A stretch of 64,000 nt of DNA from Sandaracinus sp. (GTDB lineage Bacteria; Myxococcota_A; Polyangia; Polyangiales; Houyiibacteriaceae). This document shows, piece by piece, positions 19,773 through 32,517 of the stretch. Under the pieces are notes generated by a model. It worked only from the letters and a program-made list of their open reading frames with translations, was not told the DNA's origin and did not search any database. The position numbers and the translations under genes are program-made. The DNA is taken from NCBI GenBank assembly GCA_002699025.1, contig PABA01000088.1, positions 1-64,000 of the forward strand, read 5' to 3'. Numbering within the stretch: the first letter of the stretch is position 1; every line of letters begins with the position of its first letter.

Positions 19773-21755
19773 GTGCCCGCCCTCCGCCCGACCTCGCTGG
19801 CTCTCGCGCCCCTCGCCGCCGCGCTGCTCGTCGCTTGCACCGACACGCAGCTCTTCCGCGACGACGGCACGCTCTACGAGGCCGACCGGCTCACGCTCCG
19901 CGGTCGCGTCTGCGCCGAGGACACGCGCCAGGCCACGCTGCCGACGCGCGTGGTGCTGATCGTCGACCAGGCGACGGGCCCGCTCTTCGCGGACTACGAC
20001 CCGGGCGCCACCCGCGTGCCGCTGCTCCGGAGCTTCATCCAGTCGCGCCTCGCGGACCCGGACGTGAGCTTCGCCGTCGTCGGCTACGGCGGGCTCGCCA
20101 CCATTCACGCGCCGACGGAGGGCGACTTCACGCGGAACCTCGGCGAGCTCCTGAACGCCGTCGACCTGCTCTCGCTCCCCGAGCCCTGCGCCGCGGACGA
20201 CCTCTGCCGTGACCCGGTCGCCGCGCTCCGGAGCGCCCGCGCGCTCATCGAGGGGGACCTCGCGAACACGCCCCCCGGCGAGCGTGTGCTGACCCAGTAC
20301 CAGGTCCTCTGGGTGCCCGCCGGGCCGCCCGCCCCCCTCGCGCCGGCCGCGCTCTGCTGCGCGCCGGACGACACGGCCTGCCGCGCCGCGGGCGACGCCC
20401 CCTCGGCCGAGTGCCAGGCGCAGCTCGAGCTCGAGACGGCGACGGACCTCCTCGGCGCCGTGCATCGGCTCGGTGCGCTCGGCGCGAAGCTCCACGTGAT
20501 GCACCTCGCAGCCGACGCGCCCGAGGTGAACGACGCGCTCGAGGCGCGCTTCGGCGACCTCACCTTCGCCGTCGGCGGCACCTACCAGCGCTTCGCGACG
20601 CCCGCGGCCTTCGACGGGCGCGCCTTCGACGTGCTCTCGGAGCGGCCGACGCTCCGCGCCAAGACCCTCCTCGTCGCCAACCAGAACGCGCTGCCCACGG
20701 GGGAGGGCGTCGCCGTCGACTCGGACGCCGACGGCCTGAGCGACGCGCAGGAGGCGGCCTTCGGCACGAGCCCCGGCGACCCGGACACGGACGGCGACGG
20801 CGTGAGCGACCTGGTCGAGGTGCTCGTCGACTTCGATCCGCTCACGCCCGAGGAGCCCATCGCCTGCCGGCGCGTCGAGCCGGGCGACACGGATCTCGAC
20901 GGGCTGAGTGACTGCGACGAGGCCGTCCTCGGGACCGAGCCGACGCTCGTGGACACGGACGGGGACGGGCTGCCGGACCCGCTCGAGGTGCTCGGCTTCG
21001 TCGACTACCTGCACGCGGACGCGGAGGACGACGCGGACGGCGACGGCGTCGCGAACGGCGACGAGATCCGCATGCGCATGCACCCGCGCTCGGGCGACAC
21101 GGGGCTGCACCTCGCCGAGGGGTACCGCTACGAGGTGGAGGACGAGGGGGTCGTGCGCGAGCTCTTCGCCGAGAGCCCGCGGCGCCTCGACGCCGTGCAG
21201 ACGCTCGAGGTCGGGCCGGACACGACGCCCGGTCGCGGGACCATCCTCTTCCGCGCGGACGGCACGCTCGCCTGGCAGGACCCGGGCGACTCGGAGCCCG
21301 GCGAGCCGGTCGCGATCGTCCCGCCCATGGCGAGCCCCGACGAAGAGGTCGAGCTCGTCCTCTGGGCCGCCGAGAGCGCGCCGCCCGTGCCCGACGCCGA
21401 GGGGAACGTCCCCGACCCGGCGCCCGGCTCGTGGATCCGCGTCCGCGTCCAGCCCTGGCTCCTGCCCCCGGCCGAGGTCGTCGAGGCCCTGCCCGTGGCC
21501 TACCGGGAGCGCCACTGCCTCCAGTACACGGTGCGCAACGTCCGCCTCCTGCCGACCGCCGGCTACGACGACGGCCGCGACGTCGGCACCAACCGCATCC
21601 TCCTCTTCTTCGCGGAGACGCCCGCCGGCGCGCCCCCCACGGCGCCGGGCCCGGTGCGCATCGCGGAGATCCCCGTGTTCTTCGAGCCCCCGGCCCGCCG
21701 CTTCCCCGACGGCCCGGTGCTCGAGGTCCTCGACGACGAGTTCGTCCGCCGCTGA
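19773..21755 (+). CDS. VWA-like/TSP3-repeat lipoprotein (C), MIDAS-deficient
   Basis: 660 residues from a GTG start; signal LALAPLAAALLVACTD ends in a lipobox. The VWA-like fold begins VVLIVDQATGPLF, so the DxSxS metal site reads DQATG and is probably lost. TSP3 repeats follow at about 305-430 (DSDADGLSDAQEAAFGTSP, DTDGDGLPDPLEVLG). The C-terminal part shares NRILLFFAET with paralogues A and B. It lies 23 bp upstream of the TolQ start with no terminator visible, so it appears to be the first gene of the TolQ/ExbD/AgmX operon. That ties the VWA family to the motor cluster. Confidence 0.85.
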   Translation: MPALRPTSLALAPLAAALLVACTDTQLFRDDGTLYEADRLTLRGRVCAEDTRQATLPTRVVLIVDQATGPLFADYDPGATRVPLLRSFIQSRLADPDVSFAVVGYGGLATIHAPTEGDFTRNLGELLNAVDLLSLPEPCAADDLCRDPVAALRSARALIEGDLANTPPGERVLTQYQVLWVPAGPPAPLAPAALCCAPDDTACRAAGDAPSAECQAQLELETATDLLGAVHRLGALGAKLHVMHLAADAPEVNDALEARFGDLTFAVGGTYQRFATPAAFDGRAFDVLSERPTLRAKTLLVANQNALPTGEGVAVDSDADGLSDAQEAAFGTSPGDPDTDGDGVSDLVEVLVDFDPLTPEEPIACRRVEPGDTDLDGLSDCDEAVLGTEPTLVDTDGDGLPDPLEVLGFVDYLHADAEDDADGDGVANGDEIRMRMHPRSGDTGLHLAEGYRYEVEDEGVVRELFAESPRRLDAVQTLEVGPDTTPGRGTILFRADGTLAWQDPGDSEPGEPVAIVPPMASPDEEVELVLWAAESAPPVPDAEGNVPDPAPGSWIRVRVQPWLLPPAEVVEALPVAYRERHCLQYTVRNVRLLPTAGYDDGRDVGTNRILLFFAETPAGAPPTAPGPVRIAEIPVFFEPPARRFPDGPVLEVLDDEFVRR

Positions 21756-21778
21756 GCGGCGGAATGGAGATAACCCCC

Positions 21779-22621
21779 ATGCGACACGCCCTGAAGTCCT
21801 TCCTCCCCTCCCTCGCGCGCCCCACCGCTCTGCTGGCGGCGCTCCTCGTGCCCACGCTCGGCGCCTCCCTCGCCTCCGCTCAGGAAGAGGCGGCGGAGTC
21901 CGAGGCGGCCGCGGAGAGCGGCGGCGGCGGCATCGGCGTCCTGACCGACTACCTCGCCGACGGCGGGGCGGCCATGTACGTCATCCTCGCGCTCTCGCTG
22001 ATCGGCACGGCGCTCTTCCTCGAGCGCGCCTTCGACCTCTACGTCCTGCAGAAGCTCCCGACCAAGAGCCTGCTCGGCAAGGTCATGAACGCCGTCGAGC
22101 GTCGCCGCTGGGCCGACGCGCTGAACGCCTGCGACGTCCGCTCGGCGCACCCGCTGGTCCGCGTGCTCAAGGCCGGCGTCCTCCGCGCGGATCGGCGCGG
22201 CAAGGAGATCGAGCAGGCCATGGAGAAGGAGATGCTCGAAGCCATCCCGAAGCTCCAGAAGCGGGTCGGGCTGATGGCGCTCCTCGCGAACGCGGCGACC
22301 CTGACGGGCCTGCTCGGCACCATCTTCGGCCTCATCACGGCCTTCAACAGCGTCGCCGCAGCCAGCGCCGCCGAGCGTCAGGAGGCCCTCGCGGCCGGCA
22401 TCTCGCAGGCCATGTACACCACGGCCTTCGGCATCGCCGTCGCGCTCCCGCTGCTCTTCATGCACCACTTCCTCTCGAAGCGGAGCGAGAAGATCATCCT
22501 CGAGGTCGAGGGCGGCGCCTCCGCGCTGCTGGTCGCCCTCGCCGGTGAGGTCGACGAGCGCACGCCGCCGGCCCGCGCCGAGCGCGGCGCGCCCGTCATG
22601 CCCCAGCTCGCGGGAGCGTGA
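21779..22621 (+). CDS. TolQ/ExbB/MotA proton-channel subunit
   Basis: 280 residues from the ATG at 21779, backed by GGAG at 21766-21769; an in-frame ATG at 21764 would overlap that site. It begins with a cleavable-looking signal (LLVPTLGASLASAQ), then TM1 near AMYVILALSLIGTALFLERAF, a cytoplasmic loop, and TM2/TM3 with ATLTGLLGTIFGLITAF and AMYTTAFGIAVALPLLF. These carry the conserved Thr and Gly positions of the TolQ/ExbB family. It should form the proton-conducting pentamer around the ExbD/TolR partners encoded next (8-bp gap). In Myxococcus the related AglR works with AglQ and AglS as the gliding motor. Confidence 0.92.
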   Translation: MRHALKSFLPSLARPTALLAALLVPTLGASLASAQEEAAESEAAAESGGGGIGVLTDYLADGGAAMYVILALSLIGTALFLERAFDLYVLQKLPTKSLLGKVMNAVERRRWADALNACDVRSAHPLVRVLKAGVLRADRRGKEIEQAMEKEMLEAIPKLQKRVGLMALLANAATLTGLLGTIFGLITAFNSVAAASAAERQEALAAGISQAMYTTAFGIAVALPLLFMHHFLSKRSEKIILEVEGGASALLVALAGEVDERTPPARAERGAPVMPQLAGA

Positions 22622-22628
22622 GGCCGCC

Positions 22629-23219
22629 ATGCCCTTCGCCCGCTTCCGCCACCGCGCCGAGGAGGTGCAGGAGCTCGATCTCCTGCCGGTGATGAACCTC
22701 TTCATGGTGCTCATCCCCTTCCTCCTGATGGGCGCCGCCTTCTACCAGATCGGCGTCATTCCGAGCTCGGTCGCCGCGCACGCCCCCGACGAGGAGGCCG
22801 AGCTCCCGCCGACGGATCGCGTGACGCTGCACCTGGTCGTCAAGCCCGACGCCATCGAGCTCTCGGCCACCAACGCGGCCCTCGCGCCCGAGGACCTCGA
22901 CGCGCTCGCCTGGGCCCAGGACGGCGCCCCGAGCTCCTGGGACCTCGACGGGCTCCAGGCCCAGCTCGCGTCCATCAAGGGGCGCTACCCGGCCAGCCAG
23001 ACCCTGGTCGTGCTCCCCCACGACGAGCTCGGCTACGAGCCCCTCGTCGAGCTCCTCGATGCGACGCGCGAGCGCCCGGTGGGCGAGGACGAGCACGGCG
23101 AGCCCACCTACGAGGACCTCTTCCCCGGCGTCGTCTTCAGCCGCTTCGTCGAAGGCGAGGCGGGGGAGGGCGAGGGCGAGGGCGCCGCGGACGACGGCGC
23201 CGCGACGGAGGCCGGGTGA
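22629..23219 (+). CDS. ExbD/TolR-family protein with Asn in place of the proton-binding Asp
   Basis: 196 residues: short cytoplasmic N-terminus, one TM helix (about 20-43) and a periplasmic ExbD-like domain (LHLVVKPDAIELS, LVVLPHDELGYEPLVELLDA), ending in an acidic Gly/Glu/Ala tail. In ExbD/TolR the helix starts PxxD, the Asp being essential for proton flow; here it reads LPVMNLFMVL, with Asn. The partner at 23219 keeps the Asp. So this subunit may be structural or provide asymmetry. The stop overlaps the next ATG by one base. Confidence 0.9.
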   Translation: MPFARFRHRAEEVQELDLLPVMNLFMVLIPFLLMGAAFYQIGVIPSSVAAHAPDEEAELPPTDRVTLHLVVKPDAIELSATNAALAPEDLDALAWAQDGAPSSWDLDGLQAQLASIKGRYPASQTLVVLPHDELGYEPLVELLDATRERPVGEDEHGEPTYEDLFPGVVFSRFVEGEAGEGEGEGAADDGAATEAG

Positions 23220-23704
23220 TGCGCAGCCGCTTCCTGAAGCCGCAGAAGGCCCCGGGCCTGATGCTCACCTCCCTCCTCGACATGTTCACGATCATCCTGA
23301 TCTTCCTGATCGTCAGCTTCGACGCGGAGAGCTACGACTTCCGCCTCGCCGAGGACGTGACGCTCCCCGAGAGCGCGACGCGCACGGAGCTCACGCCCGC
23401 CGTGAACGTGGCGATCACCCGCGGCCGCATCGTGGTCGAGCAGGACGAGCTGCTCGCCATCGAGGAGGGCCGCGTGCGCGAGAGCGACTACGACGCCGGG
23501 GAGATCCCCGAGCTCGTGGAGGCGCTCCGCGCCGAGTACGAGGCGCGCTTCGGCGAGGACGCCACCGCGCCCGACGACGTGACCGAGCCGATCGTGGTCG
23601 TCCAGTCCGATCGCTCCCTCGACTACCGGACGCTCTACGTGGTGCTGCGCTCCGCGGCGACGGCCGGCTTCTTCAAGTACCGCCTCGCGACGATGAAGTC
23701 ATGA
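23219..23704 (+). CDS. ExbD/TolR-family protein (intact Asp)
   Basis: 161 residues. After a short basic N-terminus (RSRFLKPQK) the TM helix reads LTSLLDMFTIILIFLIVSF with the conserved Asp, so this is likely the proton-responsive stator partner of the TolQ protein. The periplasmic domain (VNVAITRGRIVVEQDE, PIVVVQSDRSLDYRTLYVVL) matches the family. A GTG three bases upstream is an alternative start. Its stop overlaps the next ATG (ATGA). Confidence 0.92.
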   Translation: MRSRFLKPQKAPGLMLTSLLDMFTIILIFLIVSFDAESYDFRLAEDVTLPESATRTELTPAVNVAITRGRIVVEQDELLAIEEGRVRESDYDAGEIPELVEALRAEYEARFGEDATAPDDVTEPIVVVQSDRSLDYRTLYVVLRSAATAGFFKYRLATMKS

Positions 23705-24195
23705 CCCTGCTCCGCGCCCTCTTCCCCTTCGCCTTCGGGCTCCTCTTCGCCCTCTCCGGCGTCGTGCTCCCGGTCTCCACCGCGGACGCGCAAGACCGCG
23801 TCGAGCAGGACGACGGCGCCCGCGCCCGCCGGGCTCGCCGCGCCCGCGCTCGCCGCCGCCGCGCCCGCGCCCGCCGCCGGGCCCGCGCCCGCGAGGAGGC
23901 CCGGAACGCGCGCGAGGCCGACGACGCGACGCCCGACGCCGAGGACGTCGCCGGCGCCGAGGGCTCGGCCGAGGACGCGCCCCCCTCCCTCGCCGAGCAG
24001 CGCTCCAACAACCTCGAGTTCGACGAGCGCGTCATCCGCGGCGAGACGGCCGGGCAGGGCGCCATCGTCCTCTTCCAGCGCGGCGGCGAAGCCTTCGAGC
24101 CGCTCGCGCGCGTCCGCCGCTCCTTCCTGAAGGCCACCATCCTCGCCGTCTTCGGCGAGCCCCCCGCCACCCCGGAGGCCGACGATGCCGACTGA
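23701..24195 (+). CDS. Small periplasmic protein with Arg-rich tract
   Basis: 164 residues. Signal peptide (LLFALSGVVLPVSTADAQ), then a strongly basic run at about 42-65 (Arg/Ala repeats), an acidic linker and a conserved-looking C-terminal segment (NLEFDERVIRGETAGQGAIVLFQRG). The last part looks like a small folded module; I do not recognise a named family. Its place between ExbD and the AgmX/PglI protein, with overlaps on both sides, makes it a likely periplasmic part of the same machine. Confidence 0.8.
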   Translation: MTLLRALFPFAFGLLFALSGVVLPVSTADAQDRVEQDDGARARRARRARARRRRARARRRARAREEARNAREADDATPDAEDVAGAEGSAEDAPPSLAEQRSNNLEFDERVIRGETAGQGAIVLFQRGGEAFEPLARVRRSFLKATILAVFGEPPATPEADDAD

Positions 24196-27115
24196 GCAGA
24201 TGCACGAGGACGCGCCCCAGCTCGCGGGCGGCGGCACGGCCTCCGCGCGCACGCAGCTGCTGCTGCGCGAGATGTGGTCGCGCCCGGAGGACTTCGCGGC
24301 GCTCCTGAGCCTCCGCGATCACCTCCTGGAGGAGGGCCGCGTGAGCTCGCTGCTCCGCGCCGTCGAGTGGTGGGCCCAGCGCGCGCCGGACGAGCGCTCG
24401 GCGGCGCGCGGGATGTTCGCCGTGGCCGAGGCCCTCCGCGTGCGGCGCCTCGACCCGGAGGCGGCCATGGGCCTCTACGAGGAGGTGCTCCGGCGCGAGC
24501 CGCTCCACGCGCCGACCCTGCAGCGCCTCCGCCGCATGGCCACGGCCCACCGCGCGCCCGAGCGCCTGGTGGCGCCCCTCCAGCGCCGGGCGGAGGCCCT
24601 CGCCGTGCGCCACACGGCGGCCGACGCCTGCGCCGCCGCCTGGAAGGAGCTCGCCGAGCTCCGCGCCGTCGACCTCGGCGACGAGGACGGAGCCATCGAC
24701 GCGCTCCACCGCGCCGTGCAGGTCGCGCCGGGGGACGCCGGCACGCTCCTCCGCCTCGCCGGCCTCTACGAGGCGCGCGCGAGGCGCGGCGACGGTTCGA
24801 ACGCGCAGGCCGATCGGGTCGCCGCCGCCGAGCTCCTCTGCGCCCTCGCCAGGGTCGACGAGGACGAGGCCGGCGCGCACCTCGGGCGCGCCCTCGACGC
24901 CTGGCCCGGGCACGCGAAGGCCATGGCGCTCCTGGAGGAGGCCACGCCGTCCGCGCATCGCGCCGCGCGCCTCATGGGTCGCTGGGTGGCCTTCCTCGAG
25001 GCGAACCCCTCGAGCGACGAGAGCGCGCCGCGGCGCCTCTCGCTGGCGCGAGCCCTCGAGGCCGGGGGGCGCTTCGCCGAGGCCCTCGAGGTGCTCGAGC
25101 CCCTGCGCGCGACCGGCGGCCCGGCCGTGCAGGCCGTGCGGGAGCGCCTCGCCAAGCAGCTCTGGGCGACCGAGCAGCCGACGCGGGTGGGCCCGCAGCC
25201 GAAGCGCGGGACGGACGCGAGCATCGTCGCGCTCCTCGACGAGCTCGAGGCCGAGGCGGAGGGGCCGACCGAGGTCTCGGCGATGAGCGCGGACGTGCGG
25301 GCGCGCCTCCGCGGCCCGGCCCCGGCGGCGACGCGGGACGTGGTCGTGGGCCGGCCCGTGCCGTCCGTGACGCCGCTCCCGACGGTCGTGCCGGCGCGCT
25401 CGGAGCCGGTCGACGAGGCGCTCGAGAAGACGCTCCCCTCGAAGCCGCCGCATTTCGGTCAGGACCCCTTCGCCGACGAGGAGGCGCCGACCGCGCACCG
25501 GGCCCTCGAGGGGTCGCCTCGCCCGGCGCAGGGCGACGACGAGGTCGACGAGAACGCCTCGACGATCGTGCGCGATCGGCCCCCGGAGCTCGAGGCCCTC
25601 GCGCGCCGGCGCCGCCGCGACGCCACGGCGGCGCAGCGGCCCTCGAAGAAGCCCGCGGCCCGGAAGGAGCCCACGCCCCCCTCCACGCCGCCGGCGCTCC
25701 CGGAGGCGCGGGGCGGGGTGGCCGCGGTGCCCTCGACGAGCGAGCCGACCGAGCCGCTCCCCCGTCTCCGCGCGCCGAAGGAGGGCGTCGAGCCGCGGCT
25801 CTGGGACGACGCGGAGGAGGACGAGGACGTCGTCCTGGCGCCGGACGGTCCGCCGGTCGCCAAGGCGCTCCGCGCCACCACCCTCGACTCGGGCGCGCAG
25901 GCGCCGCTCGCCGCGGACCTCGTTCGGCTCCGCGACGGGCGCACCGTGGGCACGACGGCCCTCCCGCTCCGCCCCTGGGGCCGCGCCGTCGCCGGGACGC
26001 CCTTCGTCGTCGCGCGCCGGGGCGAGGCCGTGCACCTCCAGCTCCGCTTCCCCGTGGAGCAGGGCGACCTCCGCCGCGGCGGCGTGCCCGAGGCGCTCCC
26101 GCCCATGGGCCGGTGGGTCGAGCTCCGCGCGGGCGACGTCGCCGAGCTCGAGCTCGAGGGGACGACCTACCACCTGCGCGTGCATCGCCGCCACGCGGTC
26201 CCCGCCGCGGGCCGGGAGGAGCTGCCGACCAGGCGCTTCCTCGGCGCGGCTGGCGCGTCCTTCGGCGCGCACCTCCTCGCCATGCTCGCCTTCGTCGCCC
26301 TCGGCGTCTGGGGCGGGGTCAGCCTCGAGGTGGAGGAGCGCTCGCGCGAGGAGATCTTCGCGGAGGCGCGCCTCGCTCCCGAGCCGCCCCCGGAGCCCGA
26401 GCGCCCCGAGCCGCGCCCCCAGCCGCGCCGCGCGCGCCCCGAGCCGCCGAGCGAGACGCGCACGCCCGTGCCCCGCGCCGTGCGCCGGCACCTCCGCCGC
26501 GCGCGTCGCTCCGGCAGCGCCTCCTCGCGCCTCGCCTCGGCCCTCTCGGAGGGCGCCGCCTCCCAGGGCACGACGGACCTCGCCGAGGTGGTCTCGAACA
26601 TCGACGCCGTCCGCGGCGACGCCCGGAGCGCCGCGCTCAGCGTGCACGGGGCGCTCGCCGACCTCGGCGACCACGGCGTGAACCTCGCGAGCCGGGCCGC
26701 CCGCGACATCGAGACGGTCGGGTCGGAGACGGCCACCCGGAACCTCGAGGGTGTGCGGGCGAGCGGCAGCGGTCGCACCCGCGGTCGCGTCCGCGGCGTC
26801 CGGGCCCTCGCCCGCGTGCAGGGCAGCCTGAGCCGGGGCGAGGTCGTCTCGGTCATCAACCGGCACATCGCCCGGGTGCAGCGCTGCTACGAGCGCGCCC
26901 TCGCGAGCCAGCCGGATCTCTCCGGTCGCGTGCGCTTCGCCTGGACCATCCGCCCGAACGGGCGCGTGAGCGGCGTGCGCCAGGCCGGCGGCTCGCTCGG
27001 CAGCGGCCGGGTCTCGAACTGCATCGGCGGCGTCATCCGGCGCATGCGCTTCCCGCGTCCCCGCGGCGGCCCGGTCGCCGTGACCTTCCCCTTCGTCTTC
27101 CAGCGCGCGCCCTGA
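24185..27115 (+). CDS. AgmX/PglI-type TonB-like protein (GltG/GltJ-like)
   Basis: 976 residues. Residues about 15-340 are TPR-like helical pairs (cytoplasmic), then a low-complexity linker. A beta-rich region at about 575-680 (PFVVARRGEAVHLQLRFP, GTTYHLRVHRRH) precedes a single TM helix near 690-712 (AHLLAMLAFVALGVWGG). A Pro/Arg/Glu stretch in the periplasm follows, then a C-terminal AgmX/PglI domain at about 884-976 (VINRHIARVQRCYERAL, VRFAWTIRPNGRVSGV). This is the layout of Myxococcus GltG/GltJ, which reach from the TolQR motor to the outer membrane. Such domains resemble TonB C-termini and probably contact the barrel encoded next. The ATG overlaps the previous stop by 11 bp. Confidence 0.88.
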   Translation: MPTEQMHEDAPQLAGGGTASARTQLLLREMWSRPEDFAALLSLRDHLLEEGRVSSLLRAVEWWAQRAPDERSAARGMFAVAEALRVRRLDPEAAMGLYEEVLRREPLHAPTLQRLRRMATAHRAPERLVAPLQRRAEALAVRHTAADACAAAWKELAELRAVDLGDEDGAIDALHRAVQVAPGDAGTLLRLAGLYEARARRGDGSNAQADRVAAAELLCALARVDEDEAGAHLGRALDAWPGHAKAMALLEEATPSAHRAARLMGRWVAFLEANPSSDESAPRRLSLARALEAGGRFAEALEVLEPLRATGGPAVQAVRERLAKQLWATEQPTRVGPQPKRGTDASIVALLDELEAEAEGPTEVSAMSADVRARLRGPAPAATRDVVVGRPVPSVTPLPTVVPARSEPVDEALEKTLPSKPPHFGQDPFADEEAPTAHRALEGSPRPAQGDDEVDENASTIVRDRPPELEALARRRRRDATAAQRPSKKPAARKEPTPPSTPPALPEARGGVAAVPSTSEPTEPLPRLRAPKEGVEPRLWDDAEEDEDVVLAPDGPPVAKALRATTLDSGAQAPLAADLVRLRDGRTVGTTALPLRPWGRAVAGTPFVVARRGEAVHLQLRFPVEQGDLRRGGVPEALPPMGRWVELRAGDVAELELEGTTYHLRVHRRHAVPAAGREELPTRRFLGAAGASFGAHLLAMLAFVALGVWGGVSLEVEERSREEIFAEARLAPEPPPEPERPEPRPQPRRARPEPPSETRTPVPRAVRRHLRRARRSGSASSRLASALSEGAASQGTTDLAEVVSNIDAVRGDARSAALSVHGALADLGDHGVNLASRAARDIETVGSETATRNLEGVRASGSGRTRGRVRGVRALARVQGSLSRGEVVSVINRHIARVQRCYERALASQPDLSGRVRFAWTIRPNGRVSGVRQAGGSLGSGRVSNCIGGVIRRMRFPRPRGGPVAVTFPFVFQRAP

Positions 27116-27165
27116 GCCTCTCCCCCGCGCCTCACCCCCGCGCCCAACCCCCACCCGCGTCCCCC

Positions 27166-27170
27166 GGAGG
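27166..27170 (+). promoter_or_regulatory. Strong Shine-Dalgarno before a TTG start
   Basis: GGAGG lies five bases before the TTG at 27176. It decides the start of the barrel gene, since no ATG precedes the signal peptide. Confidence 0.6.
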
Positions 27171-27175
27171 ATCCC

Positions 27176-27811
27176 TTGAACGCCCTGCACCGCCTCACCC
27201 TCGCCCTCGCCGCCGCGGCCACGCTGGCCACGGCCGCCCCGGCCGCCGCCCAGGAGGCCGCCGAGGAGGGCTACGCCTCCATGGCCGTCCAGAACCGGCG
27301 CTACGCCCAGCGCCACGAGTTCGACGCGCACTTCGGCGTGCTCCCCCTCGACGCCTTCACCAAGGGCCTCACGCTCAGCGGCTCCTACACCTTCCACCCG
27401 ACGAACCTCTTCGCCTGGGAGGTGCTCCACGGCCTGAAGTCCTTCCATCTCGACACGGACCTGCGCGAGGAGCTCGAGCAGCTCAGCGTCGCGCCGACGC
27501 CCTTCGAGGTGCTCGACTGGATGGTCACCTCGAACCTGGTGCTCAAGCCCATCTACTGGAAGGGCGCCTTCCTCAACCGCTCGGTCCTCCACGGAGAGGT
27601 CTCGCTCGTCGTCGGCGGCGGCTACGGGCGCTTCTCGCGGAGCGGGCGGGCGGTCATCGACGTGGGCCTCGCGCTCCGCCTCTTCGCGAGCGAGACCTTC
27701 AGCGTCCGCCTCGACGTGCGCCACCACATGTTCCTCCGGGACACGCCCTTCAGCGGCGGCGGGCTCGACCACGAGCTCTGGATCGCCCTGGCGTTCGGGC
27801 TCGGAGCCTGA
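27176..27811 (+). CDS. Outer-membrane beta-barrel domain protein (OMP_myx_plus-like)
   Basis: 211 residues starting at TTG behind GGAGG. Signal peptide (LALAAAATLATAAPAAAQ) is followed by QNRRYAQRHEFDAHFGVLPLDAFTKGLTLSGSYTFHPTN-type strands (quoted in part), which match the small myxobacterial outer-membrane barrels next to Glt genes (GltA/GltB/GltH class). Alternating hydrophobic strands continue to the C-terminal LWIALAFGLGA. It is probably the outer-membrane anchor or pore of the cluster. It lies 60 bp after the AgmX gene and 3 bp before the TPR lipoprotein. Confidence 0.85.
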   Translation: MNALHRLTLALAAAATLATAAPAAAQEAAEEGYASMAVQNRRYAQRHEFDAHFGVLPLDAFTKGLTLSGSYTFHPTNLFAWEVLHGLKSFHLDTDLREELEQLSVAPTPFEVLDWMVTSNLVLKPIYWKGAFLNRSVLHGEVSLVVGGGYGRFSRSGRAVIDVGLALRLFASETFSVRLDVRHHMFLRDTPFSGGGLDHELWIALAFGLGA

Positions 27812-27814
27812 GCC

Positions 27815-29236
27815 ATGACGCGCCCCGCCCCGTACGCCTCGCTCGCTCTCCTCCTCGCCGCCTGCGGCGCGACCGACTGGGCCGCCGACCCCGAGCGCGC
27901 CTTCTCGGGCGCCGTCGAGCGGAACGTCGAGGAGGACTGGGGCGAGTCCGCCAACGCCGCGCACGCCTTCCGGGCCTCGGCCACCGTCGACGACCCGCGC
28001 TGGGACCGCGCCGGCATGATGCTCGCGCGCGGCCTCGAGGAGCTGGGGCTGAGCTACGCGGCCTCGCTCCACTACCTCGACGTGGCCTCCGCGCGCCGCG
28101 ACGTGACCCTCGTCGACGACGCCGTCGCCGGCCTCGAGCGCATCCTCCGCGACCACCCGCACGACGGCGAGGTCCTCGTGCGCGGCTTCCTCGCGACGGC
28201 CGAGATCGACGACCTCGGCGAGGCGACGCGGGGCTGGGTGCGCTACCTCCAGGGCCTCGACAGCCTGCGCCGGGGCCAGCTCGCCTGGGCCGTGACGCAG
28301 TTCGGGCGCATCCCCGAGACGAGCGACTACGCCCCCCGCGCCCGCTTCGCCAGCGCCGTCGCGCTCCTCGCCCACGGCCGCTTCGCCGACGGACGCGCCG
28401 CCCTCGAGGCGCTCCTGGACGACCCGCTGCTCACGGACGAGCTCCGCCAGGAGACGCAGATCGCGCTCGCGCGCCTCGCCATGGACGAGGAGCGCCACGA
28501 GGACGCGGCGGCCCTCTACGACGAGGTGAAGGAGCTCGCGCCGGAGCGCCCGGAGCTGCTCCTCGAGACGGCCTGGGCCCACTACCACTCGGGCGACTCG
28601 CGGCGCGCCCTCGGCTTCCTGCTCGCGCTCGACGCGCCCATGTACGGCGACCTCATCGCGCCGGAGCGCTATCTCCTCGAGGCCTTCAGCCTGCAGCGGC
28701 TCTGTCAGTTCGATCCGGCGCGCACGGCCGCCGTGCGCCTCCGCGCCCGCCACGGGGACGCGCTCGAGGATCTGCACCGGGGCGTCCCGCCCGCGCGCTC
28801 CGAGGCGCTCCGGGCCGCCGCGCGGCGCCGGGGGGCCGGCCGGGAGATCGCGCGCTTCGTCGACCGGCTCCGCCTCGAGCGGGCCCGCGTCGCCGAGGCG
28901 GGCCGCGAGCTCGGCGAGCCGCTCCAGCACGCGCTCCTCGCCCTCTACGACCGCGGCCTGGCCGAGGCCACGCGCCGGGAGGAGGCGGTGCTCCGCGAGG
29001 AGACCGAGGCCCTCGCCCGCGAGCTGGTCCGCGCCGAGGACGGCGTGCGCCTCGTGCTCCACGACCTCGGCGTGGGGCTCCTCCGCGGGCGCCAGCGCGT
29101 GCCCGGCCCCGACGAGGTCGAGGCGCTGGTCGTCGAGGCCGGCGACGAGGCCGTCGGCTACGCCTTCGCCGGCGAGTTCTGGACCGACGAGCTCGACGAC
29201 CTCGTCGTCACCATCGAAGACCGTTGCCTGGAGTGA
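27815..29236 (+). CDS. TPR lipoprotein of the Glt-like cluster
   Basis: 473 residues with a lipoprotein signal (YASLALLLAACGATD) and TPR-like helix pairs across about 50-330 (YLQGLDSLRRGQLAWAVTQF, LLETAWAHYHSGDSRRALGFL), then a Glu/Arg-rich helical C-terminus (likely coiled coil) ending VVTIEDRCLE. It resembles GltE-type periplasmic TPR lipoproteins in layout. Coupled tightly to the barrel upstream and to the larger TPR gene 14 bp downstream. Confidence 0.82.
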   Translation: MTRPAPYASLALLLAACGATDWAADPERAFSGAVERNVEEDWGESANAAHAFRASATVDDPRWDRAGMMLARGLEELGLSYAASLHYLDVASARRDVTLVDDAVAGLERILRDHPHDGEVLVRGFLATAEIDDLGEATRGWVRYLQGLDSLRRGQLAWAVTQFGRIPETSDYAPRARFASAVALLAHGRFADGRAALEALLDDPLLTDELRQETQIALARLAMDEERHEDAAALYDEVKELAPERPELLLETAWAHYHSGDSRRALGFLLALDAPMYGDLIAPERYLLEAFSLQRLCQFDPARTAAVRLRARHGDALEDLHRGVPPARSEALRAAARRRGAGREIARFVDRLRLERARVAEAGRELGEPLQHALLALYDRGLAEATRREEAVLREETEALARELVRAEDGVRLVLHDLGVGLLRGRQRVPGPDEVEALVVEAGDEAVGYAFAGEFWTDELDDLVVTIEDRCLE

Positions 29237-29250
29237 CTGGAGTGATCGGA

Positions 29251-32200
29251 ATGACCCGCCCCGCTTCCCCCCTCGTCGCCGCTCTCCTCGGCGCCCTGCT
29301 CGCCGCCTGCGCCGGCAGCTCCGTCGCGCCCCGCGACGCGAGCGAGGTCGAGCTGCTCCGCATCCGCATCGCCAAGGCGCGCCACGCCATCGACGAGACG
29401 CGGACGGCCATCGCGACCTCCCAGGGCGCGCCCTACCTGCCCGAGCTCTACGCGCGGCTCGGTGCCCTCTACAGCGAGGAGGCGCGCTACCACTACCGGC
29501 TCGCCGCGGCGCGCTCGGCCGACGCGCGCCCGGACGCGCTCCACGTGCCCCAGGTGCGCCTCCTGAAGGAGCGCGCCATCGGCGTCTACCAGCAGATCCT
29601 CCGCCGCTTCCCGGGCGCCCCGAACCGCGACGAGGTCCTCTTCCACCTCGCCTTCGAGCACCGCGAGCTCGGCGAGCACGGGGACATGGTCGGCGCGCTC
29701 CGGCGCCTCGTCGACGAGCACCCCCACAGCCCCTTCCGGCCCCAGGCGGCCATCGTGCTCGGCGACCACCTGCGCGACCAGCAGGACCTCGAGGGCGCGG
29801 CGCGGGCCTACGCGATGGTGGCGGGCGGCGACGCGGGGAAGGCGGTGGCGCTCGCGCACTACCGGCTCGCGTGGATCCACGTGAACCGGGAGAGCTGCCC
29901 GGCGGCGCTCCGCGAGTTCGAGCGCGCCGTCGCGGCCTACGACGCGGCCGGGGAGGCCGTCGACGAGGAGACGCTCGAGATCGGCGAGGCCATCGACGTC
30001 CGCCGCTCGGCCATCGTGGACATGGTCTACTGCTATTCGCAGGAGCGGCCGCATCGGCGCGCGCTCCGCGACTTCCGCGCGCTCGCCGGCGACCGGGCCA
30101 CCTACGTGGCGGCGCTCCGGCGGCTCGCGCGGCGCTACGCGCTGATGGACAACGCCCACGCGACGCTGCCCGTGGTGCGCGAGCTGCTCGCGCTGGCGCC
30201 GGCCTCGGAGGAGCGCCTCGACGACGCCCGCGCGCTCCACACGGCGCTCCGCGGCGCCGCGGACTGGGACCGCATCGACCGGGACGTGCGGCTGCTCCTG
30301 GGCACGGTCGAGCGCACCGTGCAGCGCCTCGACGTGGAGGGCGAGGAGCGGGACACGCTGCGCGCCGAGTTCGAGGTCTACGCGCGGGATCTCCTCACCC
30401 GCGCGCAGGACGGAATGCGCGAGACCCGGAACGCGGCGCGGAAGGTGCGCCGCGCCGAGGCCCTCGCCGCCGCCTACGCGCACTACCTCGACCGCTTCGG
30501 CGTCGCGCCGGAGGGTGAGCTCGGGGAGCACGAGCTGGACATGCGCATGAACCTCGCGGACGTGCTCGCCGCCGCCGAGCGCCCCTACGCGGCCGGGCAG
30601 CGTCTCGTCGAGGCGGCCGAGCGCATGGAGGACCCGGAGGCGCGGCGGCAGGCGCTCTACGACGCCGTCGGGCGCTTCAGCGAGGCCCTCGAGACGCGGG
30701 ACCACGACCGGGACGAGTACGGCGACCGGAGCATCGCGCCCTCGGCCCTCCGGAACGCGGCGGCGCAGCTCATGCGGCACGAGCTCGAGCCGGACCAGCT
30801 CCGGCGGGTGCGCTTCGCGCTGGCCCAGAGCTACTACGACCAGGGCCGCTACGCCGAGGCCATCGATCGGCTCACGGCGCTCGCCTACGAGTTCCCCCAG
30901 AGCGAGGAGGCGCAGGCGGCCGCGCGGCTGGTGCTCGACAGCTACAACACGCTCGACGACGCCTTCGGGCTCATGCACGCCGGGCGCCGCTTCCTCGCCG
31001 AGGGCACGCCCGTGCCCGGGCTGCGGAGCGAGCTCGAGCCGCTGGTCGCGGCCGCCGAGCAGCGCATGGTCGACGAGGTCAGCCTCGAGCAGGCCGGCGA
31101 CGACGGGGGCGACCTCGAGCCGCTCCTCGAGCTGGCGCGGGATCACGAGGGCACGGACCTCGGCGAGCGCGCGCTCATGAACGCCTTCCTGGCGGCGCGG
31201 GCCGCGGGCGACACGGCGCAGATGTACACGCTCGGCGAGGAGCTGGCGCAGGCCTACCCGAGCTCCGAGCAGCTCGCGGGGGTGCTGAGCACGCTCGGTC
31301 AGATGGCCGTCGGGCGCTTCGAAGTCGACGAGGCGCTGACCTTCCTCGAGCGGGCGGCCGAGGCCGGTCACGAGCGCCAGGGCGCGCTCCGGGTCGCCGC
31401 CGGGCAGCTCCTCGAGGCCCTGGGCCGCGAAGACGAGGCGCAGGCCGCCTACGAGGCGGCGATGGGCGGGGAGGGCGCGCCGGAGGAGGCGATGGTGCAG
31501 CTCGCGGCGCTCCTCGAGCGGCGCGGCGACGCCGACGCGCTGGTGAACCAGCTCGCCGAGCTGCCGAGCGCGCCGCCCGAGGTGCGCGCCCGGGTGGGCC
31601 TGGCGATGGTGGCGACCGGGCGCGGCGTGGAGGCCGAGGAGGTCTTCCAGCAGGTGCTGGCGACGGCCTCGACTCCGGAGGCGCTCGCGCGCGCTCACTA
31701 CGGGATGGCGGCGCTCCTCCAGGCGGCCCTCTCGCAGTTCGGCGCGCTCGAGGGGCCCGAGCTGGTGGAGGAATACCTGGCCGTCGTGGACCTCGCGCAG
31801 AGCTCCTACATCGAGGCCGTGCGCCAGGGCGACCCGGCCGTGGGGGCGCTGGCGCTCGGGCGGCTCGGCGCGCTCGCCGACGAAGCGGCGGCGGCGCTGG
31901 GGAGCGCGAACCTGGACGGCTTGGACGCGGAGATGCGCCGGGTGATCGAGCGCGGCCTCGGGCAGCGGGCCGAGGCCTACGCGCAGACGGCGACCGAGGC
32001 GCGGGCCCAGTGTGCGAACCGCGCCTGGGAGAGCCACGTCTTCACGCCGGGCGTGCGCCGCTGCCTGCGGGGGGAGTCGGCGACGGCGGTGCTGCCCGAG
32101 GCCGACCGGCTCGAGCGCGGGGGCGGACGGACCGTGGACGGGGCCGACGAGACCCGGGCGCGGGTCGCCCAGAACCCCGAGGATCTCCAGGCGCTCCGGG

Positions 32201-32517
32201 CGCTGGCGGCGCGGCATCTCGAGGCCGGCGACGCGCACACGGCGCGGCTGGTGCTGCAGGCCATCGCCGAGCGCGGGCCACGGCCGGAGGACCTGGAGCA
32301 GCTCGGCGTGGCGAGCGCGCGGATCGGCGACCACGCGGGGGCGCTCCGGGCCTTCGCCCGCGCGGCGGACGCGGGGAGCGCGTCGGCCCGGGAGAAGCTC
32401 GAGGCGACGCTGCGGGAGCTCGGGCTCCGGGACGCGGCGGCCGAGGTCGGGCGGCGCTTCGGCCAGGAGCGGCTCGCGCGAGGCCCGGGCCCGGAGGATG
32501 CGGGGGGCAGGCGATGA
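29251..32517 (+). CDS. Large TPR lipoprotein of the Glt-like cluster
   Basis: 1,088 residues from the ATG at 29251; the frame is open far upstream, but this start gives the lipoprotein signal (LVAALLGALLAACAGSS). Almost the whole mature protein is TPR/tol-pal-like helical repeats (DEVLFHLAFEHRELGEHGDM, RFALAQSYYDQGRYAEAIDRL, PYLPELYARLGALYSEEA). It would form a long periplasmic superhelix, in the manner of the large TPR subunits of the Glt complex (GltD/GltI class). The stop overlaps the next ATG (ATGA). Confidence 0.85.
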   Translation: MTRPASPLVAALLGALLAACAGSSVAPRDASEVELLRIRIAKARHAIDETRTAIATSQGAPYLPELYARLGALYSEEARYHYRLAAARSADARPDALHVPQVRLLKERAIGVYQQILRRFPGAPNRDEVLFHLAFEHRELGEHGDMVGALRRLVDEHPHSPFRPQAAIVLGDHLRDQQDLEGAARAYAMVAGGDAGKAVALAHYRLAWIHVNRESCPAALREFERAVAAYDAAGEAVDEETLEIGEAIDVRRSAIVDMVYCYSQERPHRRALRDFRALAGDRATYVAALRRLARRYALMDNAHATLPVVRELLALAPASEERLDDARALHTALRGAADWDRIDRDVRLLLGTVERTVQRLDVEGEERDTLRAEFEVYARDLLTRAQDGMRETRNAARKVRRAEALAAAYAHYLDRFGVAPEGELGEHELDMRMNLADVLAAAERPYAAGQRLVEAAERMEDPEARRQALYDAVGRFSEALETRDHDRDEYGDRSIAPSALRNAAAQLMRHELEPDQLRRVRFALAQSYYDQGRYAEAIDRLTALAYEFPQSEEAQAAARLVLDSYNTLDDAFGLMHAGRRFLAEGTPVPGLRSELEPLVAAAEQRMVDEVSLEQAGDDGGDLEPLLELARDHEGTDLGERALMNAFLAARAAGDTAQMYTLGEELAQAYPSSEQLAGVLSTLGQMAVGRFEVDEALTFLERAAEAGHERQGALRVAAGQLLEALGREDEAQAAYEAAMGGEGAPEEAMVQLAALLERRGDADALVNQLAELPSAPPEVRARVGLAMVATGRGVEAEEVFQQVLATASTPEALARAHYGMAALLQAALSQFGALEGPELVEEYLAVVDLAQSSYIEAVRQGDPAVGALALGRLGALADEAAAALGSANLDGLDAEMRRVIERGLGQRAEAYAQTATEARAQCANRAWESHVFTPGVRRCLRGESATAVLPEADRLERGGGRTVDGADETRARVAQNPEDLQALRALAARHLEAGDAHTARLVLQAIAERGPRPEDLEQLGVASARIGDHAGALRAFARAADAGSASAREKLEATLRELGLRDAAAEVGRRFGQERLARGPGPEDAGGRR

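Follow-up and report, generated by a model that had tools for sequence, protein, structure and literature searches.

A TolQ-type operon of Sandaracinus sp. with two ExbD subunits, the first carrying asparagine at the proton-binding position

We describe an operon of Sandaracinus sp. in which a TolQ-type gene is followed by two adjacent ExbD-like genes, the first encoding Asn at the position of the proton-binding Asp and the second encoding the Asp itself. Sequence comparison shows this Asn/Asp pair to be genuine, conserved and of long standing. Related operons in several bacterial groups retain the acid in the partner alone, which suggests a motor that is asymmetric by design and has a single proton site in place of two. 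It is fairly probable, in our view, that a TolQ-type proton motor is encoded here, one whose ExbD pair is obligately asymmetric and whose protons would be carried by the second subunit alone.

The operon and its two ExbD subunits

The window, the whole stretch of DNA analysed here (64,000 nucleotides), contains a likely operon on the + strand that spans positions 19773-32517 and includes the following genes:

19773..21755, + strand: TSP3-repeat protein, probable lipoprotein, opening the likely operon (PF18884, 35.7 bits)
21779..22621, + strand: TolQ/ExbB/AglR-type pentamer protein (PF01618, 91.5 bits)
22629..23219, + strand: first ExbD-like subunit; Asn23 occupies the Asp site and Pro30 lies at +7 (Pfam, alignments)
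23216..23704, + strand: second ExbD-like subunit, which retains the conserved Asp (PF02472, 41.7 bits)
23701..24195, + strand: small protein of no known family, lying after the ExbD pair and before the GltG/J-like gene
24185..27115, + strand: TPR protein with an AgmX/PglI-type (GltG/GltJ) C-terminal domain (NF033768, 92.5 bits, cut-off 40)
27176..27811, + strand: probable outer-membrane barrel protein (translation read by eye)
27815..29236, + strand: TPR lipoprotein, weakly GltC-like (NF033756 GltC, 50.6 bits, cut-off 450)
29251..32517, + strand: long TPR lipoprotein, closing the likely operon (TPR families)

The product of the first gene resembles MtsD, involved in cell-cell cohesion (NF047639, 116.7 bits, below the curated cut-off of 800), and a homologue of this gene also lies upstream of TolQ in near relatives. 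The TolQ-type protein scores below the cut-off of the Tol-Pal TolQ equivalog (TIGR02796, 61.1 bits vs 221). No Pfam or NCBIfam match was found for the small protein encoded at 23701..24195, and a similar ORF occupies the same place in near relatives. The TPR protein that follows it is a candidate force transducer, and scores below the cut-offs of both GltG (74.5 bits vs 650) and GltJ (54.6 bits vs 450). Just past the operon, the segment 33281-35164 encodes delta-60 repeats (DUF5122 beta-propeller) and cadherin-like domains, possibly those of a surface protein.

The first ExbD gene runs from the ATG at 22629 to the stop at 23219 and encodes 196 amino acids, with the TM helix ELDLLPVMNLFMVLIPFLLM. 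Asn23 is encoded by AAC (22695-22697), and Pro30, at +7 from it, by the codon at 22716-22718. The protein scores above the cut-off of PF02472 (ExbD/TolR; 32.1 bits vs 25.4). In a family profile alignment Asn23 coincides with the Asp found in ExbD and TolR chains of solved structure, and MAFFT pairs it with the Asp in the adjacent ExbD and in two paralogues. The ORF reading and both alignments therefore bear out an earlier note on this DNA, which had placed an Asn at the proton-binding position of ExbD. Because Asn23 replaces the proton-binding TM Asp of ExbD/TolR proteins, the subunit is best classed as a member of this family by descent, and not as a proton-binding ExbD. Its neighbour bears the motif LTSLLDMF, with the Asp codon at 23279-23281, and in the reading frames of the window the start of the second ExbD overlaps the stop of the first.

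The predicted model of the first ExbD (mean pLDDT 76.8) comprises a single TM helix (residues 19-39) together with a periplasmic domain. The top VIA-align match of this domain is TolR (5by4, Z 9.5), and ExbD (8pek) is matched with Z 7.7; because unrelated folds reach up to Z 8.9 on the scale for this model, these values lend moderate support to a predicted TolR/ExbD-like periplasmic fold. A Foldseek search with the model gave 0 matches at E <= 0.001, and TolR/ExbD was absent among the 50 matches listed.

Distribution of the ExbD pair

Two-ExbD operons were collected with a TolQ bait profile built from 12 sequences, all from Asn-type operons; it favours the TolQ kin of such operons, and the ExbD residue is invisible to it. 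We searched 235 genomes of the phylum of Sandaracinus sp., 185 from the class to which a Marinobacter genome belongs, 60 of the phylum of a Chitinispirillaceae genome and 198 of that of a Desulfobacteraceae genome, the groups being named after the titles of their centre loci. The census loci are the best-scoring matches and, for the own phylum, 80 further stretches from lower down the matches listed, with site residues assigned by HMM alignment. This gave 177 operons, identical copies retained, from genomes that were not picked for Asn.

The first subunit carries Asn in 133 of these operons, Ser in 11, Gly in five, Ala in three, Cys in two and Asp in 23; it is therefore non-acidic in 154/177 (Asn 133, and Ser, Gly, Ala or Cys 21), and the second ExbD has Asp in 177/177. 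Neither the order Asp/Asn nor a pair with both subunits non-acidic was seen among the operons read. In the own phylum (L130-L239), 114 TolQ starts comprised 74 Asn/Asp, 22 Asp/Asp, six Ser/Asp, three Ala/Asp and three Gly/Asp pairs, and six starts left out of the 177 (five lacked ExbD and one had just a single Asp ExbD). All 29 TolQ loci of the gamma group (the Marinobacter class) were Asn/Asp. The Fibrobacterota-type group (n=27) had Asn/Asp in 24 and Gly/Asp in two loci, and Asn alone in one; the Desulfobacterota-type group (n=25) had six Asn/Asp, five Ser/Asp, two Cys/Asp and one Asp/Asp pairs, and 11 loci without two ExbDs. Across these last three groups, 12 rows were left out of the 177 (Asn alone 1, none 6, single Asp ExbD 5). 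Two loci, L343 and L344, have Cys at the Asp site of the first ExbD and Asp in the second. Tandem TolQ-like genes were observed upstream of Asp/Asp ExbD pairs at L159, L178, L195 and L204.

A scan of named genomes placed Asn-type loci in contigs titled Myxococcota/Myxococcales, Desulfobacteraceae, Chitinivibrionales, Fibrobacter, Nitrospinae, Marinobacter and Pseudomonadales. The best 80 of its 109 loci were kept, and Asn was found in 57/57 of those listed, with a search pattern that itself included Asn and was thus biased for it. These 80 loci, and L240-L269 from genomes found via the same scan, stand outside the 177; together with the TolQ-baited operons they make up a set of 256 distinct operons.

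Closer to the window, a search of 144 genomes of the order gave three close orthologues of the first ExbD (45-50% identity), each with Asn. In the own genome, with both strands read, the TM motif is readable in 12 ExbD proteins, of which 11 have Asp and one, the first ExbD of the window, has Asn; a thirteenth Pfam ExbD match covers model positions 47-124 only and so lacks the motif. Further Agl-like ExbD genes of this genome, all with Asp, are clustered at G000:C69:11016-17677 (L005-L008, L012, L047).

The three orthologues and the census agree with the natural Asn/Asp pair that the earlier note had proposed, and the confinement of Asn to one strain, which it had named as evidence to the contrary, does not hold, given the 133 baited operons with Asn in the first ExbD. 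The pattern is in fact stronger than that note claimed, because Ser, Gly, Ala or Cys can also stand in the first subunit, whereas Asp in the second is constant. An artefact or a strain quirk was considered as the source of the Asn and rejected, since the residue is common to many distant operons.

Hallmarks and history of the non-acidic subunit

Within the 256 distinct operons, Pro at +7 is found in 224/229 non-acidic first subunits vs 0/27 of the Asp type. Asp and Glu are absent from positions -5 to -1 and +1 to +12 in 229/229 distinct non-acidic first subunits, so that no neighbouring acid in this range, a possibility raised against the original reading, could replace the proton site. One position further out, at -6, the non-acidic first subunits have Asp in 143/229, vs 0/27 of the Asp type. 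This could hint at a displaced acid and counts against an asymmetric pair: the Asp at -6 (Asp17 here) might bind a proton in the first subunit, which would then still provide a second site. We regard this as quite improbable, because position -6 is Asn in 79/229, close relatives of the window included, and because the site precedes the TM proline and lies six residues nearer the cytoplasmic end of the helix.

That other residues can take the place of Asn (Ser, Gly, Ala or Cys, in 21/229 distinct non-acidic first subunits) was also counted against the asymmetric pair. Such replacements, in several lineages, might be expected if the Asp of the first ExbD were no longer needed and the site were drifting without functional meaning. 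Decay of this kind is hardly credible in view of the retention of Asn in 208/229 and of the near-invariant Pro at +7, the small size of every substitute residue, and the TolQ tree, which holds only two changes between Asp and a non-acidic first subunit.

This unrooted tree (69 rows, thinned from 184) groups the Asp/Asp rows into one clade of 12 and one long branch, and the Ser, Ala and Gly types are nested among Asn. On an ExbD tree of 228 rows, weakly supported with 102 of 225 inner branches open, a single change separates first from second subunits, which points to two old, distinct subunits. The two genes lie close together: the stop codon of the first ExbD precedes the Asp codon of the second by a median of 84 bases (n=263). 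No single ORF was found to hold two ExbD domains that both bear a TM segment. At +11, towards the outer end of its TM helix, the second ExbD has Lys in 72/229 operons of the non-acidic class; in the 27 Asp/Asp operons Lys lies outside the seven commonest residues listed.

In the TolQ-type protein, Thr181 (22319-22321) and Thr215 (22421-22423) align with T145 and T178 of E. coli TolQ, as counted along an alignment to solved TolQ; the accessible text of PMC12965293 describes these as proton-path threonines. Both columns are Thr in 100% of all operon classes among the 256 distinct operons, and the pore threonines of 5:2 rotary proton motors are accordingly present in the window protein as Thr181 and Thr215. 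Two further columns differ by class: 174 is Thr in the non-acidic class and mostly Met or Val in the Asp/Asp class, and 214 is Thr in the former and mostly Cys or Asn in the latter. These class-specific threonines may reflect pore tuning, a reading confounded with descent. Position 224 of the window TolQ is Pro in the non-acidic class and mostly different in the Asp/Asp class, and the three sites together may mark an altered pore.

A putative asymmetric motor and its relatives

The first ExbD would be a dedicated non-acidic partner, with Asn in the window, and the second the bearer of the sole proton-binding Asp, both forming a heterodimeric axle inside one TolQ pentamer. The Asn site (or Ser, Gly, Ala or Cys) would be permanently uncharged, much like the protonated state. 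Because only the second subunit would load and release protons, about five protons rather than ten would pass per turn, one for each TolQ passed; the steps would measure close to 72 degrees and the maximum torque would be roughly halved (estimated with a torque relation given in the available part of PMC9389320). Force would probably reach the outer membrane through the downstream GltG/J-like protein.

The asymmetric pair is supported by the non-acidic first subunit in 154 and the Asp of the second in all of the 177 operons, by the lack of an acid nearby and by the intact TolQ threonines, and also by Pro at +7, the one-change split of the ExbD tree, the close gene spacing and the overlapping frames in the window. 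Counted against it were, in addition to the Asp at -6 and the variable Asn, the lack of an ExbD-ExbD fusion among the ORFs found and a census drawn from an Asn-type-derived bait profile and best-scoring loci only.

The main rival to the asymmetric pair is that the two ExbDs form separate homodimeric complexes, the Asp-ExbD homodimer with TolQ being the motor and the non-acidic ExbD forming a passive complex or serving as a factor for assembly, plugging or peptidoglycan binding. According to the available text of PMC9389320, homo- versus heterodimer is unknown even for AglQ/AglS, and the predicted TolR-like periplasmic domain of the first subunit appears well formed and could work alone. Two complexes nevertheless seem unlikely to us, given the ordered ExbD pair behind one TolQ in 177/177 operons and a non-acidic subunit whose TM helix is still of the pore type and has a near-invariant Pro peculiar to it.

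As to known systems, the operon has the gene order of the AglR-AglQ-AglS/Glt core complex, with one TolQ-type and then two ExbD-type proteins and a downstream GltG/J-type C-terminal domain, as well as GltC-like and TPR proteins. It differs in that its first ExbD has Asn and only its second Asp, whereas AglQ and AglS of Myxococcus xanthus are described with Asp in both in the accessible text of PMC9389320; the Asn is thus no feature of that pair. The other Agl-like clusters of the own genome (contig C69) are likewise Asp/Asp, unlike the window operon. Because the Asp of the first ExbD is missing and the NCBIfam equivalog cut-offs of GltG, GltJ and GltC are not reached, the products being related to these proteins but not the same, we file the operon as a related asymmetric variant of the AglRQS/Glt core complex; by its gene content it belongs to an Agl-Glt-like envelope machine. 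Luciano et al. (2011) placed such a core complex in Deltaproteobacteria, Gammaproteobacteria and Fibrobacteres, with its function outside Myxococcus unknown (PMC3169522, available text).

The operon shares with TolQ-TolR and ExbB-ExbD the threonines of a TolQ-type pentamer and a predicted TolR/ExbD-like periplasmic fold. In those systems a single ExbD/TolR gene supplies a homodimer whose two copies each have Asp, whereas the window operon has two different ExbDs, one without Asp. Tandem exbD1-exbD2 genes behind one exbB, with different roles and belonging to a TonB system, are described for Xanthomonas campestris and Flavobacterium psychrophilum (PMC3551730); they are alike in arrangement, and the part of that description available mentions no missing Asp. 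The structure of MotB D22N of Campylobacter jejuni, where Asn mimics the protonated state (PMC9389320, available text), concerns a laboratory change in both copies, whereas the Asn of the window is natural and occurs in one subunit only. In the accessible text of PMC9389320, PMC12215075, PMC12965293, PMC3169522, PMC9120999, PMC3551730 and PMC12204202, the Asp is a conserved feature or is undiscussed, and the open-licence literature searched, within its accessible text, yielded no description of a natural non-acidic ExbD or an asymmetric pair.

Returning to the asymmetric pair, we put forward tentatively, and with somewhat more doubt than belief, that there is a widespread natural class of TolQ/ExbB-type motors with a heterodimeric axle and a single proton site, each turn taking about five protons in 72-degree steps. 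If true, such single-site motors would break the two-Asp alternation of current rotary models and represent a natural half-gear 5:2 motor. The Asn/Asp pair would offer a ready-made one-site motor, with its sites on separate genes, for work on step size, proton count and torque, and a natural, conserved pair of one Asp and one neutral subunit bears on the question of whether AglQ and AglS form homo- or heterodimers.
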